NCBI RefSeq assembly: GCF_016405905.1
Contig: NZ_JAEFCB010000002.1
Span: 310,001-374,000 of the forward strand
DNA length: 64,000 nt
DNA from: Variovorax sp. IB41
GTDB lineage: Bacteria > Pseudomonadota > Gammaproteobacteria > Burkholderiales > Burkholderiaceae_C
Direction of reading: 5' to 3'
In this document: positions 1-11,317 of the stretch, in pieces
Numbering within the stretch: position 1 is the first letter of the stretch
Layout: each line of letters starts with the position of its first letter
Program-made: the position numbers and the translations under genes
Notes under the pieces: model-generated
Told to the model about the DNA's origin: nothing
The model's input: the letters and a program-made list of their open reading frames with translations, nothing else
The model's database searches: none

Positions 1-288
1 GGTGAGGTTCAGCACGGCGCGCATGCGCGGCGCGAGGCGGCCTTGCACGCGGACGGCGAGCGCATCGCTCAGTGCTTGCGGCTGTACTTCCGTTGCTGCG
101 AGCTTGCCGGCCACCGCACGTGCGCGAAGCCCTTCGAGCAGCGCGCGCGCTTCACCGACAACGAGGGTGCGGCCGTGCTCGGCCAAGAGGGCACGCGGCG
201 CATCGGCGCGCAGCAGTTGATCGACAGAAGGCAGATCCTGGGGCCTTGCCGTCGAGCCGTGGACCACGGACTCTTCGGGCGCTGCCAT
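1..288 (-). CDS. selA: SelA, L-seryl-tRNA(Sec) selenium transferase (N-terminal part, runs off the window)
   Basis: SelA is the PLP enzyme that converts Ser-tRNA(Sec) to Sec-tRNA(Sec) using selenophosphate in the cytoplasm. Only the first 96 codons are inside the window. They resemble the SelA N-terminal domain: an opening LPSVDQLL, a helix around LLAEHGR, and a fragment ending VLNLT just before the family's conserved glycine-rich segment. The ATG at 288 overlaps the fdhE stop by one base (TGATG), so the two are translationally coupled in the fdn operon. That a selenocysteine synthase follows a UGA-containing formate dehydrogenase supports both calls. The PLP lysine lies beyond the edge and cannot be checked. 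Confidence 0.85.
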   Translation of the reverse strand, partial: MAAPEESVVHGSTARPQDLPSVDQLLRADAPRALLAEHGRTLVVGEARALLEGLRARAVAGKLAATEVQPQALSDALAVRVQGRLAPRMRAVLNLT

Positions 289-1337
289 CAGCCGCCCCCG
301 CCGTCGTCGAGGATTTCTTCGGGGTCGCCGAACAGCAGCATCAGGTTGTGGCCGCTGCGCTGATGTCCGGCTTCGGAGACGAGCAGGTCGAGCGTGACGC
401 TCGCCAGGTCATCGGCCACAGGTTCGACCTCCGGGTCTCGCTCCATCGCGATCTGCTTCAGGTAGTGGCCGCAGCTGTCGCAGCACTCGGCCTTCACTGC
501 GCCTTCGCGCGCGCCGGTGGCGGGCAGCTCGATGCCGGGTTCGGGCGCGAGCGATTCGAAGTGGATGCCCTTGGTGCTTTCGCAGTGCGTGCACTTGATG
601 CGCACGTAGTGCCACTCGGTGCTGCACAGCGAGCAGTGCAGGTAGCGAAAGCCCGCTTCGTCCGCGCCGATGCGCGTGATGCTCGCGGTGGGCGCGCTGC
701 CGCAGCACGGGCACTCGTTGCCGGGATCGGTGCGGCCGAAAATGTTCTCGCCGTTGCGCTCGGCCACCTGCAGCACGAGCTGCGTCCAGTAGGCCTGCAA
801 GCCGGAGGCGATCAGCGGCGCAGCGGCCAGGTCGAGGCCGAACATGATGCGGCGCGAGAGCAGGTCGGCCTGCTGGTCGAGCCAGGCGTCGTCGGCGGCC
901 ACCACGCGGTCGAGCGTGTCGCGCGCCGGGCCTTCCGGGAGGCGCGCGCGAAAGAGGCCGAGCAGGCGCCGCAGCTGCGTGCGCCACACCGCATCGCGCG
1001 TCCAGCCGAAGGCGGGCATCGGCGGCTTGAGCACTTTCGCGGCGGCTTCGAGCGCTTCGGTTTCGGGGAGCGCGACGGCCGGATGGTCCTGCAGCACCTG
1101 GTGCTGCGCCTGCGCGAGATCGGCGATGAAGAGGAGGTACTCGCGCATCGGATGCGAGGCCGCGAGCTGGCGCAGCCGCAGCTGCCGGTCGGAGAACACG
1201 GCCGCGCGCACCGGCAGGCGCAGGAACGGCATCTGCCGCCCCGCCTGCATGGCGATCTGCTCGGGGTCGAGGACGCGCGTGGTTCGGATCGGTGGCGGCG
1301 TACCGGTGGGGCTCGTCATCGGCGCAGTATCACTCAC
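288..1337 (-). CDS. fdhE: FdhE, formate dehydrogenase accessory protein
   Basis: FdhE is a cytoplasmic iron-binding protein needed for assembly or activity of respiratory formate dehydrogenases. The 349-residue product is close to family length. Its C-terminal half carries the expected Cys-rich pairs: CPCC near residue 209, CSLC at 235-238, CTHC at 249-252 and CCDSC near 285-289. The start used is a GTG at 1337 that overlaps the end of fdnI by 8 bases; an in-frame ATG at 1319 is an alternative. It lies between the gamma subunit and selA, the order expected for an fdn/fdo operon. No frame damage is visible. Confidence 0.93.
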   Translation of the reverse strand: MSDTAPMTSPTGTPPPIRTTRVLDPEQIAMQAGRQMPFLRLPVRAAVFSDRQLRLRQLAASHPMREYLLFIADLAQAQHQVLQDHPAVALPETEALEAAAKVLKPPMPAFGWTRDAVWRTQLRRLLGLFRARLPEGPARDTLDRVVAADDAWLDQQADLLSRRIMFGLDLAAAPLIASGLQAYWTQLVLQVAERNGENIFGRTDPGNECPCCGSAPTASITRIGADEAGFRYLHCSLCSTEWHYVRIKCTHCESTKGIHFESLAPEPGIELPATGAREGAVKAECCDSCGHYLKQIAMERDPEVEPVADDLASVTLDLLVSEAGHQRSGHNLMLLFGDPEEILDDGGGG

Positions 1338-1953
1338 CGCGCGTCATTTTGCGATGCCACAGGGGATGGTTCAGCTTGGCCCATCCCTCGGTGACAGTGC
1401 CGCGCGTCATCGCGCGGATGCTGCCCTTGACCCACAGCGCGGCGTAGATGTGCGTGATGACCGAGAGGATCAGCACCACCGCCGAGACCGCATGCACCAC
1501 CACCGCGATGCGCCGCACGAGGATCGGGAAGAAGCCGACGAACCACGGGCTCCAGAACATGAAGCCCGTCACCAGCAGCAGCAAGAGGCTGATGCCGAAG
1601 GCCCAGAACACCAGCTTCTGCCCGGCGTTGTATTTGCCCACCGGCGGCATGCTGGACTTGTCGCCCTTGAGCAGCTTGGGCGCGTTCTTGATCCAGTCGC
1701 GGTCGCCGCGGTCCATGAGGTTCTCGCGCCACATCGTGAAGAACAGGAACGCGAAGCCCAGCACCATCAAAAGGCCCATGAAGGGATGCAGGATGCGCGT
1801 CCACTGGCCGCCGCCGAAGAGCGTGCTCAAGAAGAACAGGCTCGGGTGGAAGAAGGCCAGGCCCGAGAGCGCGGCCGCGAAGAACATGATCGCGACGAAC
1901 CAGTGGTTCATGCGCGTGGCGTCGCGGTAGCGGCGAAGGTAGTAGCGGGTCAT
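1330..1953 (-). CDS. fdnI: Formate dehydrogenase gamma subunit, cytochrome b556
   Basis: This is the membrane anchor of the respiratory formate dehydrogenase, which binds two b hemes and passes electrons from the beta subunit to quinone. The 207-residue protein has four hydrophobic segments (about residues 17-36, 55-75, 105-125 and 140-165) with histidines near the membrane faces in NHWF, HPF, HAVS and HIYA, consistent with heme ligation. The start chosen is ATG 1953 because GAGGAGAACGCG lies directly upstream; an ATG at 1971 would overlap fdnH and has no such site. FdnI and FdoI cannot be told apart from sequence alone; the symbol follows the Sec-containing alpha subunit. Confidence 0.92.
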   Translation of the reverse strand: MTRYYLRRYRDATRMNHWFVAIMFFAAALSGLAFFHPSLFFLSTLFGGGQWTRILHPFMGLLMVLGFAFLFFTMWRENLMDRGDRDWIKNAPKLLKGDKSSMPPVGKYNAGQKLVFWAFGISLLLLLVTGFMFWSPWFVGFFPILVRRIAVVVHAVSAVVLILSVITHIYAALWVKGSIRAMTRGTVTEGWAKLNHPLWHRKMTRGE

Positions 1954-1963
1954 CGCGTTCTCC

Positions 1964-2941
1964 TCATGCACGGGGTGCGTCGCGGGGCGGTTCGACGGGC
2001 CGGGCAGCCGATGCGGGCGGCTCCTCGATCACCACCACGTCGTCGGGCCGGCCATCGAGGTCGGCATCCGGGTGCTCGTCCTTCGGCTCGATCGGCCCGG
2101 TCTTCATGTAGTGGAAGAAGCTGCCGACCACCGCGCCGATCATCGCGACCATCGCGAGCGGCTTGGCCACGCCCTTCCAGAGCGACACCAGCGGGCTGAT
2201 GTGCGGGTCTTTCGGCAGGTTGGCGTACAGGCCCGGGCGGTCGGCATGCTGCAGCACGTACATGACGTGCGTGCCGCCCACGCCGGCCGGGTCGTACACG
2301 CCGGCGTTGGCGAAGCCCCGGTCCTTCAGGTCGACGATGCGCTCCGAGGCGTACTCGTGCATGTCCTCCTTGGTGCCGAAGTGCAGCGCGCCGGTGGGGC
2401 AGGCCTTCACGCACGCCGGCTCCAGGCCCACGCCCACGCGGTCGGAGCACAGCGAGCACTTGTAGGCCTTGTTGTCGGCCTTGCTGATGCGCGGCACGTC
2501 GAACGGGCAGCCCGTCACGCAGTTGCCGCAGCCCACGCAGTGTTCGCTGATGAAGTCGACGATGCCGTTGCTGTACTTGATGATCGCGCCCGGCGCCGGG
2601 CAGGCTTTGAGGCACCCGGGGTCGTCGCAGTGCATGCAGCCGTCCTTGCGGATCAGCCATTCGAGCTTGCCGGCCTCGGGCTCGACCTCCGAGAAGCGCA
2701 TCACGGTCCACGAGGCGGGCGTGAGGTCGTTCGGGTTGTCGTAGGTGCCATGCGTGGTGCCGACCTCGTCGCGCAGGTCGTTCCACTGCATGCACGCGAC
2801 CTGGCAGGCCTTGCAGCCGATGCAGGTCGACACGTCGATCAGCTTGGCCACTTCCTGCACCTGCGGGCGGCTGCGGATGTCGGGCGACGGCGTGGTCGTG
2901 GCCGAGCGGGCGGCGATGTCCAGGGTTTGGAGGGATGACAT
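1964..2941 (-). CDS. fdnH: Formate dehydrogenase beta subunit, four [4Fe-4S] clusters
   Basis: This is the electron-transfer subunit that carries electrons from the molybdenum site to cytochrome b. The 325-residue product shows four ferredoxin-type Cys groups: [37 protein letters not shown] and a final group starting CSLC and ending CVKACP. A single hydrophobic helix near residues 265-285 ([16 protein letters not shown]) should anchor it to the membrane, as in E. coli FdnH. A short charged proline-rich tail follows. It starts 3 bases after the fdnG stop and ends 10 bases before the fdnI start, so all three subunits are co-transcribed. Confidence 0.95.
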
Positions 2942-2944
2942 CGC

Positions 2945-5900
2945 TTATGCCTTCTCGATATTCACGGTGAACGACTTGTACTCGGGCGTCTGCGTGTTCG
3001 CATCACCCACGAAGGGCGTGAGCGTGTTCACCAGGTACCCCGGCTTCGCGATGCCCACGAACCCCCAGTGGTTCGGCAGGCCCACCGTGTGCACCGTGCG
3101 GCCATCGACCTGCAGCCCGACGATGCGCTTGGTCACCAGCGCCACGGCCTTGATGAAGCCGCGCTTGCTCCAGACCTTCACCATGTCGCCGTTGGCGATG
3201 CCCTTGTCCTTGGCAAGCTCCTCGCCGATCTCCACGAACTGCTGCGGCTGGATGATGGCCGAGGTGCGCACGTTCTTCGTCCAGTAGTGGAAGTGCTCGG
3301 TGAGCCGGTAGCTGGTCGCCACGTACGGGAAGTCCTTCGGCACGCCCAGGCGCTCCAGGTCGCCCTTGAAGATGCGCGCCGCGGGATTGGCGCGCGCCTT
3401 CGGGTTGTTCGGGTGCATCAGGTTGTTCACCAGCGGCGACTCGAAGGGCTCGTAGTGCTCGGGCAGCGGTCCCTCGGCCATGCCGGTGGGCGCGAAGAGC
3501 CGCGCCACGCCTTCGGCCGTCATGATGAAGGGGCGCACCGCCTCGGCTTCCATCGGGTTCGCATCGGGCCGGATGTCGGGCACGTCGGCGCCTGTCCATG
3601 CCTTGCCGTTCCACGCGACGAGGCTGCGCCGCGCGATCCACGCCTTGCCGGTCGCCGGATCGGTCGAGGCGCCGTTGTAGAGGATGCGCCGGTTCGCCGG
3701 CCACGCCCACGCCCAGTTCTGCACCATGCCGATGCCGTAGGGATCGGCGTTGTCGCGCCGCGCCATCTGGTTGCCCGCCTGCGTCCAGGCGCCGGCGTAG
3801 ATCCAGCAGCCCGAGGCGGTCGAGCCGTCGTCGCGCAGCAGGCCGAAGCCCGAGAGCTGCTCGCCGGCCTTGGCCGTCGGCGGCTTGCTCGGGTCCTTCG
3901 GATCGAGCAGGTCGGTGAGCGCGCGGCCGTTGTATTCCATCGCCAGCTCTTGCGCCGAGGGCGAGTGCGCGATCTTGTAGGGCCACGTGAGCTTGACGAT
4001 CGGGTCGGGGAAGGCGCCGCCGTCCTTGATGTAGGCCTGGCGCATGCGGCTGAAGATGCCCGCCACGATCTCGATGTCGCCCTTGGCTTCGCCCGGCGGC
4101 TCCGCGCCCTTCCAGTGCCACTGCAGCCAGCGGCTGGAGTTGGTGAGCGAGCCGTCTTCTTCCGCGAAGCAGGTCGATGGCAGGCGGAACACCGTGGTCT
4201 GGATGTCGGTGGTCTTGACGTCGTTGAACTCGCCGAAGTTGCGCCAGAACTCGCTGGTCTCGGTCTGCAGCGGATCGATGGTGACGAGGAACTTGAGCTT
4301 GGAGAGCCCCTCGATGATCTTCTTCTTGTCCGGGAACGAGCCCACCGGGTTGAAGCCCTGGCAGATGTAGCCGTTGAGCTTGCCCTGGCTCATGAGCTCG
4401 AAGGCCTGCAGGATGTCGTAGAGCTTGTCGATCTTGGGCAGGTAGTGGAAGGCCCACTCGTTCTCGGCCGTGGCCGCGTCGCCCCACCACGACTTCTGCA
4501 TGCTGACGAAGAACTTGGGGTAGTTCTGCCAGTAGCTCATCTGGTTGGGACGCAGCGCCTTCAGCGCCCGGGTCTTGTAGTAGTCGGGCAGGTTCTGCTC
4601 GCTGTCCCGCGCGAGCGACATGTAGCCGGGCAGCGAGTTCGACAAGAGCCCCAGGTCCGTCAGGCCCTGGATGTTGCTGTGGCCGCGCAGCGCGTTCATG
4701 CCGCCGCCGGGCACGCCGATGTTGCCGAGCAAGAGCTGCACGATCGCGCCCGTGCGGATCATCTGCGAGCCCTGGCTGTGCTGCGTCCAGCCCAGGGCAT
4801 ACATGATGGTCATGGTGCGTGTGGGCACGCTGGTGCTCGCGATGTACTCGCACACCTTCAGGAACTTGTCCTGCGGCGTGCCGGTGATGCGGCTCACCAG
4901 CTCGGGCGTGTAGCGCGAATAGTGGCGCTTCATCACCTGCAGCACGCACTGCGGGTCCTGCATGGTCATGTCGACCTTGGCCATGCCGGCTTCGTCCAGC
5001 GCGTAGTTCCACGACTTGGGGTCGTAGTTGCGCTTCTCGGCGTTGTAGCCGCTGAAGATGCCGTCCTCGAACTTGTAGTCAGGCCCGACGATGAAGGTCG
5101 CGTTGGTGTAGTTGCGTACGTACTCCGTCTGGATCTTGTCGTTGCTCAAAAGGAAGTTGATGACCCCCGCGAGGAACGCGATGTCCGAGCCCGCGCGCAC
5201 CGGTGCGTAGTAGTCGGCCATGGCGGCCGAGCGCGTGAAGCGCGGGTCCACCACGACAAGGCGCGCCTTGTTCTGCTTCTTGGCCTCGATGACCCACTTG
5301 AAGCCGCACGGGTGCGCCTCCGCGGCGTTGCCGCCCATGATCAGCACGACATCCGCGTTCTGGATGTCCTGCCAGTGGTTGGTCATCGCACCGCGTCCGA
5401 ACGTCGGGGCCAGACTGGCCACCGTAGGTCCGTGTCAAACGCGTGCCTGGTTGTCGAACACCAGCATCCCGGTCGAGCGGAATGCCTTGTGCGTGATGTA
5501 CCCGGTTTCGTTGGACGAGGCCGAGGCGCAGAGCATGCCCGAGCTGGTCCAGCGGTTGACGGTCTTGCCGTCGGCGTTGGTGGTCTGGAAGTTGGCGTCG
5601 CGGTCGGCCTTGAGCAGCTTGGCGATGCGGTCCAGCGCCTCGTTCCAGCCGATGCGCTTCCACTCGGTGCTGCCGGCCTCGCGCACTTCGGGGTACTTCA
5701 GCCGCATGGGGCTGTGCACGAAGTCCAGCAGGCCCGCGCCCTTGGGGCACAGCGTGCCGCGGTTCACGGGGTGGTCGGCATCGCCCTCGATATGGAGGAT
5801 GTCGGACACCACGTTCTTGGCCTTGTCGCCCAGGCTGTACATGATGAGCCCGCAGCCCACCGAGCAGTACGGGCAGGTGTTGCGCGTCTCGGTGGTGCGC

Positions 5901-6022
5901 GCGAGCTTGAAGTTGCGCGCCTCGGCCAGCGCCGCGGTCGGCGAGAAGCCGAGCGCCACGATGCTCGAGCCGATCAGGCCCGCGCTGCTGACACGGAAGA
6001 ATTGCCGGCGGCTTATGTCCAT
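2945..6022 (-). CDS. fdnG: Formate dehydrogenase alpha subunit, selenocysteine-containing, Mo/W-bis-MGD
   Basis: This is the catalytic subunit that oxidises formate to CO2 on the periplasmic side. The reading frame is 1,026 codons from ATG 6022 to TAA 2945, with one internal TGA at 5435-5437. Translation around it reads NQARV-U-HGPTVAS, matching the conserved selenocysteine-histidine of FdnG-type enzymes. By count the UGA is codon 196, the same position as in E. coli FdnG as remembered. The N-terminus carries a Tat signal (SRRQFF, residues 5-9) and a [4Fe-4S] motif with Cys 50, 53, 57 and 92. AGGAGG lies 8-13 bases before the start. Total length (1,025 residues) is normal for the family. A gene finder treating TGA as stop would wrongly split it at this point. 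Confidence 0.96.
5406..5437 (-). other. UGA selenocysteine codon with bacterial SECIS hairpin
   Basis: On the minus strand the UGA (5437-5435) is followed by 11 bases and then an 18-base element, GGTGGCCAGTCTGGCCCC (5423-5406). It folds as GG, a bulged U, GGCC, the loop AGUCU, GGCC, CC. The bulged U and the GU in the loop are the features that SelB recognises in the E. coli fdnG and fdhF elements, and the 11-base spacing is the same. The element lies inside the coding sequence, as is usual in bacteria. Basis: seen in the sequence, compared with the known E. coli structure from memory. Confidence 0.9.
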
Positions 6023-10733: not shown

Positions 10734-11048
10734 TCAAACGGCGCCGACCATGCGCCGCATGAGCAGGCCCTTCAAGTCTCTTCGCGTGTCGCAGACGAGG
10801 TGGTTGTAGGCGACATCCACCCGTGCTTCGTAAATGATGCGGTTCATGCCCGAGATGACTTGCCGGTACTGGGCCGCGTTCAGATTTTCCAGCTCCTCCG
10901 GAATTCGGCCCGCCAGGGGATGCGCTTGGATCATCGCGACGGATTGCTTGATCTTTTCGTAGCTCGCCGCCCAGGTTTCCGTGCTGAAGTTGTAGCGCCG
11001 CAGGTCCTTCAGGTCGGCCTCGGCGGACCGCAGGAACACAACCTTCAT
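10734..11048 (-). CDS. ParE/RelE-superfamily toxin
   Basis: This 104-residue basic protein has the RelE/ParE fold pattern: an opening strand with SAEADLKDLRRY, a helical hairpin containing HPLAGRIPEEL, then strands with the typical RIIYEARVD segment and a C-terminal RRDL helix. ParE members poison DNA gyrase and RelE members cleave mRNA on ribosomes; which applies here cannot be read from sequence. The start overlaps the antitoxin stop (ATGA), the usual arrangement with the antitoxin gene first. It is convergent with the AAA ATPase gene. Confidence 0.88.
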   Translation of the reverse strand: MKVVFLRSAEADLKDLRRYNFSTETWAASYEKIKQSVAMIQAHPLAGRIPEELENLNAAQYRQVISGMNRIIYEARVDVAYNHLVCDTRRDLKGLLMRRMVGAV

Positions 11049-11317
11049 GGGGTGTGTTCTTGGTCCAGGTCGGCGAACACTTCGTCCGCAGGCCGGAATT
11101 GGCCCTGCTCAATTTCGCGATTGCCGAGCGCCAGGACTTTCAGGAGGGCGAGGGTCGCTTCCTGTTCTTCGTAAGAGCGCACATCCATCACCACGAGCTT
11201 GGCCTCGCCGTTCTGGGTAATGACCATGGGCTCGCGGGTGTCCGAGAGGGTCTTCACGATGTCCGCGGCATGGCTCTTGAGATAGCTGATGGGTTTGACC
11301 TGCGTGGAGAAATTCAT
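11045..11317 (-). CDS. Phd/YefM-family antitoxin
   Basis: This 90-residue antitoxin has the Phd/YefM N-terminal DNA-binding fold: KPISYLKSHAADI followed by EPMVITQNGEAKLVVMD and a YEE helix. The C-terminal 30 residues are acidic and would wrap the toxin. It is the first gene of the pair and should repress its own promoter, in the 78-base gap before the LysR gene. The start ATG 11317 is preceded by AGGGAGAGC. The toxin gene overlaps its stop by four bases. Confidence 0.9.
   Translation of the reverse strand: MNFSTQVKPISYLKSHAADIVKTLSDTREPMVITQNGEAKLVVMDVRSYEEQEATLALLKVLALGNREIEQGQFRPADEVFADLDQEHTP

Follow-up and report, generated by a model that had tools for sequence, protein, structure and literature searches.

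A predicted selenocysteine-containing formate dehydrogenase encoded beside its decoding genes in Variovorax sp. IB41

Introduction

In Variovorax sp. IB41, the gene for the alpha subunit of a formate dehydrogenase is interrupted by a TGA, which raises the question of whether this codon ends a broken reading frame or is read as selenocysteine (Sec). The gene lies in the window, the stretch of 64,000 nucleotides analysed here (G000:C22:310001-374000). The initial annotation took it for a Sec enzyme that ordinary gene calling would break into two fragments. The break does occur: naive ORF calling cuts the gene into 6499-5435 and 5422-2945, which is also what a true nonsense mutation, or a sequencing error, in a decaying gene would give. 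We argue that the TGA is read as Sec, since a SECIS element and the full decoding machinery adjoin it. On the sequence evidence, it is nearly certain that the locus comprises a complete membrane-bound Mo/W-type formate dehydrogenase operon joined to sel genes, with the TGA decoded as Sec at codon 196.

The alpha-subunit gene and its operon

The features of the operon, in window coordinates, are as follows.

2945..6022, minus strand: formate dehydrogenase-N/O alpha subunit, fdnG/fdoG type (TIGR01553, alignment with 1KQF chain A, read-through translation)
5435..5437, minus strand: Sec codon TGA, at position 196 of the frame (opposite the Sec, written X, of E. coli FdnG in the alignment; conserved in homologues, see below)
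5382..5440, minus strand: SECIS element, Rfam SECIS_3 (RF01989), 59 nt (covariance-model match and conserved apical helix)
1964..2941, minus strand: formate dehydrogenase beta (iron-sulfur) subunit, fdnH/fdoH (TIGR01582, 442.7 bits, cut-off 334.7)
1330..1971, minus strand: formate dehydrogenase gamma (cytochrome b) subunit, fdnI/fdoI (PF01292, 90.5 bits, and operon position)
288..1337, minus strand: FdhE, formate dehydrogenase accessory protein (TIGR01562, 243.2 bits, cut-off 187.65)
1..288, minus strand: start of selA, first 96 codons (remainder outside the window, at G000:C22:308843-310000)

The frame of the alpha gene runs on the minus strand from an ATG at 6022 to a TAA at 2945 and has 1,026 codons. 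Read-through translation gives a product of 1,025 residues, the length originally proposed, with Sec at residue 196 and a Tat-type leader (MDISRRQFF) at the N-terminus; the TGA at 5437-5435 is the sole internal stop. The product matches TIGR01553 over its full length and above the curated cut-off (1452.7 bits, cut-off 814.2, residues 2-1024). This family model is not known to separate fdnG from fdoG, and 'FDH-N/O alpha' is therefore the safer name. E. coli FdnG (1KQF chain A) aligns end to end with the product (1486 bits), its Sec196 being matched by the TGA, precisely the codon that had been singled out from the sequence. The motif at this place, U196-H-G-P, fits the UHxP motif of formate dehydrogenase alpha subunits, in which the active-site Sec or Cys is followed by H (PMC13188914). 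The G+C content at third codon positions is 0.95 upstream of the TGA and 0.95 downstream, which speaks against decay of the gene. The gene must accordingly be annotated as one selenoprotein of 1,025 residues. As stated in the initial annotation, selA follows; it has the same direction, although only its first 96 codons (288-1) are inside the window.

Elsewhere in the window, two small adjoining genes on the minus strand (10734-11317) resemble, by eye, a ParE/RelE-type toxin and a Phd/YefM-type antitoxin.

The SECIS element

The hairpin claimed to lie 11 bases after the TGA, with a bulged U and a GU loop, is found at 5423-5406 on the minus strand, where it had been placed. This upper hairpin of 18 nt (GGU-GGCCA-GUC-UGGCC-CC) has a bulged U and the apical loop GUC, and its spacing from the TGA is exactly 11 nt (CACGGACCUAC). 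When the Rfam model RF01989 is run on the region, it matches 5440-5382 with the UGA at the model start (76.0 bits, E = 7.1e-17; gathering cut-off 63 bits). Across the 6.87 Mb genome this is the single strong SECIS_3 match, the runner-up scoring 18.4 bits (E = 0.74), and the search for this class found no second SECIS_3-type selenoprotein above threshold in the genome.

Single-sequence folding gives the hairpin an unremarkable energy (z = 0.16) because the region is GC-rich. The case for the element rests instead on the family match, covariation and codon alignment. Among 24 distinct homologue sequences, the seven base pairs of the upper (apical) stem are paired in 100% of cells, and two of them show compensatory double changes: at column pair 23-35, GC is replaced by AU in 3 sequences, and at column pair 26-32, AU is replaced by CG in 10. 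The replacements are synonymous and fall at third codon positions. With the partner slid by 1-3 columns, pairing drops from 88.5% to 27-49%. The lower stem of the Rfam SECIS_3 structure is paired in 79.6%, and several of its pairs are not conserved.

The selenocysteine machinery

The initial annotation held that the absence of selB, selC or selD from the genome would count against Sec. All three are present near the alpha gene, in a cluster with selA immediately left of the window. Two features of this region have the following coordinates.

G000:C22:308843-310288 (L020:8843-10288), same direction as the alpha gene: selA (TIGR00474, 574.6 bits, cut-off 267.9)
G000:C22:305626-308790 (L020:5626-8790), minus strand: FadE16-like/Rv1680-like SBP/AurF-like triad, just left of the window, between selA and selB

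None of the four sel genes is more than about 14 kb from the alpha gene, and each scores over its curated cut-off. SelB matches TIGR00475 over its full length (490.6 bits), and selC is a tRNA-Sec (77.8 bits) with the anticodon TCA (UCA in RNA). The selD gene (TIGR00476, 433.1 bits) is divergent from the other sel genes and encodes the Cys form, judging by its sequence (GGGCGCK). Profile searches thus find SelB and SelC together with SelA and SelD, the set by which the Sec-decoding trait is recognized, and the strain very probably uses selenocysteine. Sequence analysis establishes the gene, the codon, the SECIS element and the machinery genes, as well as the conservation described below.

Adjoining selD and divergent from it is a gene for the substrate-binding protein of a putative selenate ABC transporter (L020:1418-2395, minus strand; TIGR04553, 368.2 bits, cut-off 250); a gene for a PhnC-like ATPase is also next to selD. 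Of 101 Variovorax genomes, 89 have a member of the TIGR04553 family; most of the 89 lack selB, and the family is therefore not tied to the Sec trait.

Conservation and distribution

Codon 196 is TGA in 110/110 aligned FdnG homologues, mostly from Beta- and Gammaproteobacteria; 30 of them belong to the genus and 80 come from public genomes (Beta- and Gammaproteobacteria and a few metagenome bins), and a few genomes are in both sets. Identity to FdnG of named Variovorax loci is 89-94%. A stop or frame loss elsewhere in the homologues, named at the outset as the mark of a decayed gene, is limited to a single TAG, in an assembly that is fragmentary and 58% complete.

Sec use had been called patchy in this bacterial group, and the genome counts bear this out: 39 of 101 Variovorax genomes have selB (31/87 among the good ones), as do 110 of the 399 genomes of a family-wide sample. 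The Sec-containing enzyme (fdnG-U) is found in 35 of the 101 Variovorax genomes, with the TGA present in 35/35 in the piece holding codon 196. It occurs together with selB in 34 of the 35 carriers, the exception being a 58%-complete assembly. At E <= 1e-150, no Cys form of the enzyme that might indicate a Sec/Cys switch was found in the 101 genomes, and those lacking fdnG-U had no close relative of it. These counts suggest that the trait, patchy within the genus, has been gained or lost as a whole, and Variovorax offers a clean example of a Sec trait that a genome either has or lacks as one linked unit. Horizontal transfer has been described for units of this kind (PMC5029168).

A separate selC-selA-selB locus, present in three Variovorax genomes that lack fdnG, encodes a UGSC-like selenoprotein (L144:10258, L145:12155, and L146 on the minus strand), whose in-frame TGA lies in ADAVITGNGG-U-GTCTPAAVRP (motif GNGG-U-GTC). 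Selenoproteins that contain UGSC have been listed as a family (PMC13188914), and the locus is a second, separate type of Sec system in the genus. One further genome (G043) has, besides its fdn-linked selB, an extra divergent selB (44% identical) with no tRNA-Sec nearby (L148, G043:C1:2020000-2035000).

These data bear on how the TGA is read. That it is decoded by ordinary read-through, with a near-cognate tRNA such as that for Trp or Cys, has a precedent in bacteria that use TGA as a sense codon, but it is very improbable here: tRNA-Sec(UCA), SelA, SelB and SelD are present, the SECIS element has the canonical 11-nt spacing, and within the genus the alpha gene goes with selB. Nonsense mutation or sequencing error, for which the two fragments are the evidence, is less probable still and is rejected, as the TGA is kept in every homologue across many genera, the SECIS element is conserved with covariation, four intact sel genes lie beside the alpha gene, and third-position composition is the same on either side.

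Proposed decoding and electron transfer

With the TGA read as Sec, the working of the system would follow established knowledge of E. coli FDH-N, from which the decoding event, the binding of the metal by Sec and the transfer of electrons to quinone are inferred. SelB-GTP carrying the Sec-tRNA(UCA) would bind the upper hairpin of the SECIS element, which closely follows the UGA, so that Sec would be delivered at codon 196 in place of the chain end by release factor 2. Sec196 would then serve as the active-site metal ligand in the oxidation of formate to CO2, and the electrons would pass by way of the beta iron-sulfur subunit and the gamma cytochrome b to quinone.

The triad between selA and selB

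The first triad gene encodes a relative of the FadE16/Rv1679-like acyl-CoA dehydrogenase (410 bits, under the equivalog cut-off of 600), the second an Rv1680-like SBP that resembles phosphonate-binding proteins (224 bits vs a cut-off of 400), and the third an AurF-domain protein, an AurF-like diiron oxygenase (34.4 bits, over 29.6). The FadE relative is found in 21 Variovorax genomes, all with selB (21/21), and in 20 genomes of the family sample, of which 17 have selB; in 9/20 it is directly beside selB. The hypergeometric P for the family sample is 6e-8, uncorrected for relatedness or linkage, and the three carriers without selB all belong to one genus (g66). The position of the triad varies, being after selB in Ideonella and between selA and selB in Roseateles koreensis.

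The association of the triad with selB is thus strong in the genus and family samples. This association and the changed position in Ideonella speak for the triad being a module, so far undescribed, that supplies selenium, perhaps by recovering it from an organoselenium compound for use in Sec synthesis, but we regard this as a rather unlikely, tentative proposal. The names of the families indicate relatives in M. tuberculosis, a species that to our knowledge is without the Sec trait; the wider triad families are therefore not restricted to that trait. Titles and abstracts of the Rv1679/Rv1680 literature hold nothing on selenium, and a small sample of selenium-gene literature has no mention of an acyl-CoA dehydrogenase.

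Comparison with known systems

By title and abstract, the literature on Variovorax, selenocysteine and formate dehydrogenase has nothing on this system. It is a textbook single-selenoprotein system, and both its mechanism and its gene arrangement have long been known. The enzyme is like E. coli FDH-N (FdnGHI, 1KQF) in domain order, in the position of Sec at 196 and in the Tat-type leader. The SECIS elements of E. coli share the 11-nt spacing from UGA to hairpin, the bulged U and the GU of the apical loop. However, the alpha subunit has 1,025 residues here and 1,015 in E. coli FdnG, and, unlike in E. coli, the structural genes form one cluster with fdhE and the sel genes.

In the latter respect the locus follows the selABC-fdhA clusters of Betaproteobacteria and Pseudomonas, in which the Sec machinery adjoins fdhA. 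Betaproteobacteria with Sec decoding were reported to have similar selA-selB-selC operons, with the neighbouring fdhA as the sole selenoprotein gene (Zhang et al., 2006; PMC1794560). The present locus differs from those clusters in having the FadE-like/SBP-like/AurF-like triad between selA and selB and the putative selenate ABC transporter gene beside selD.
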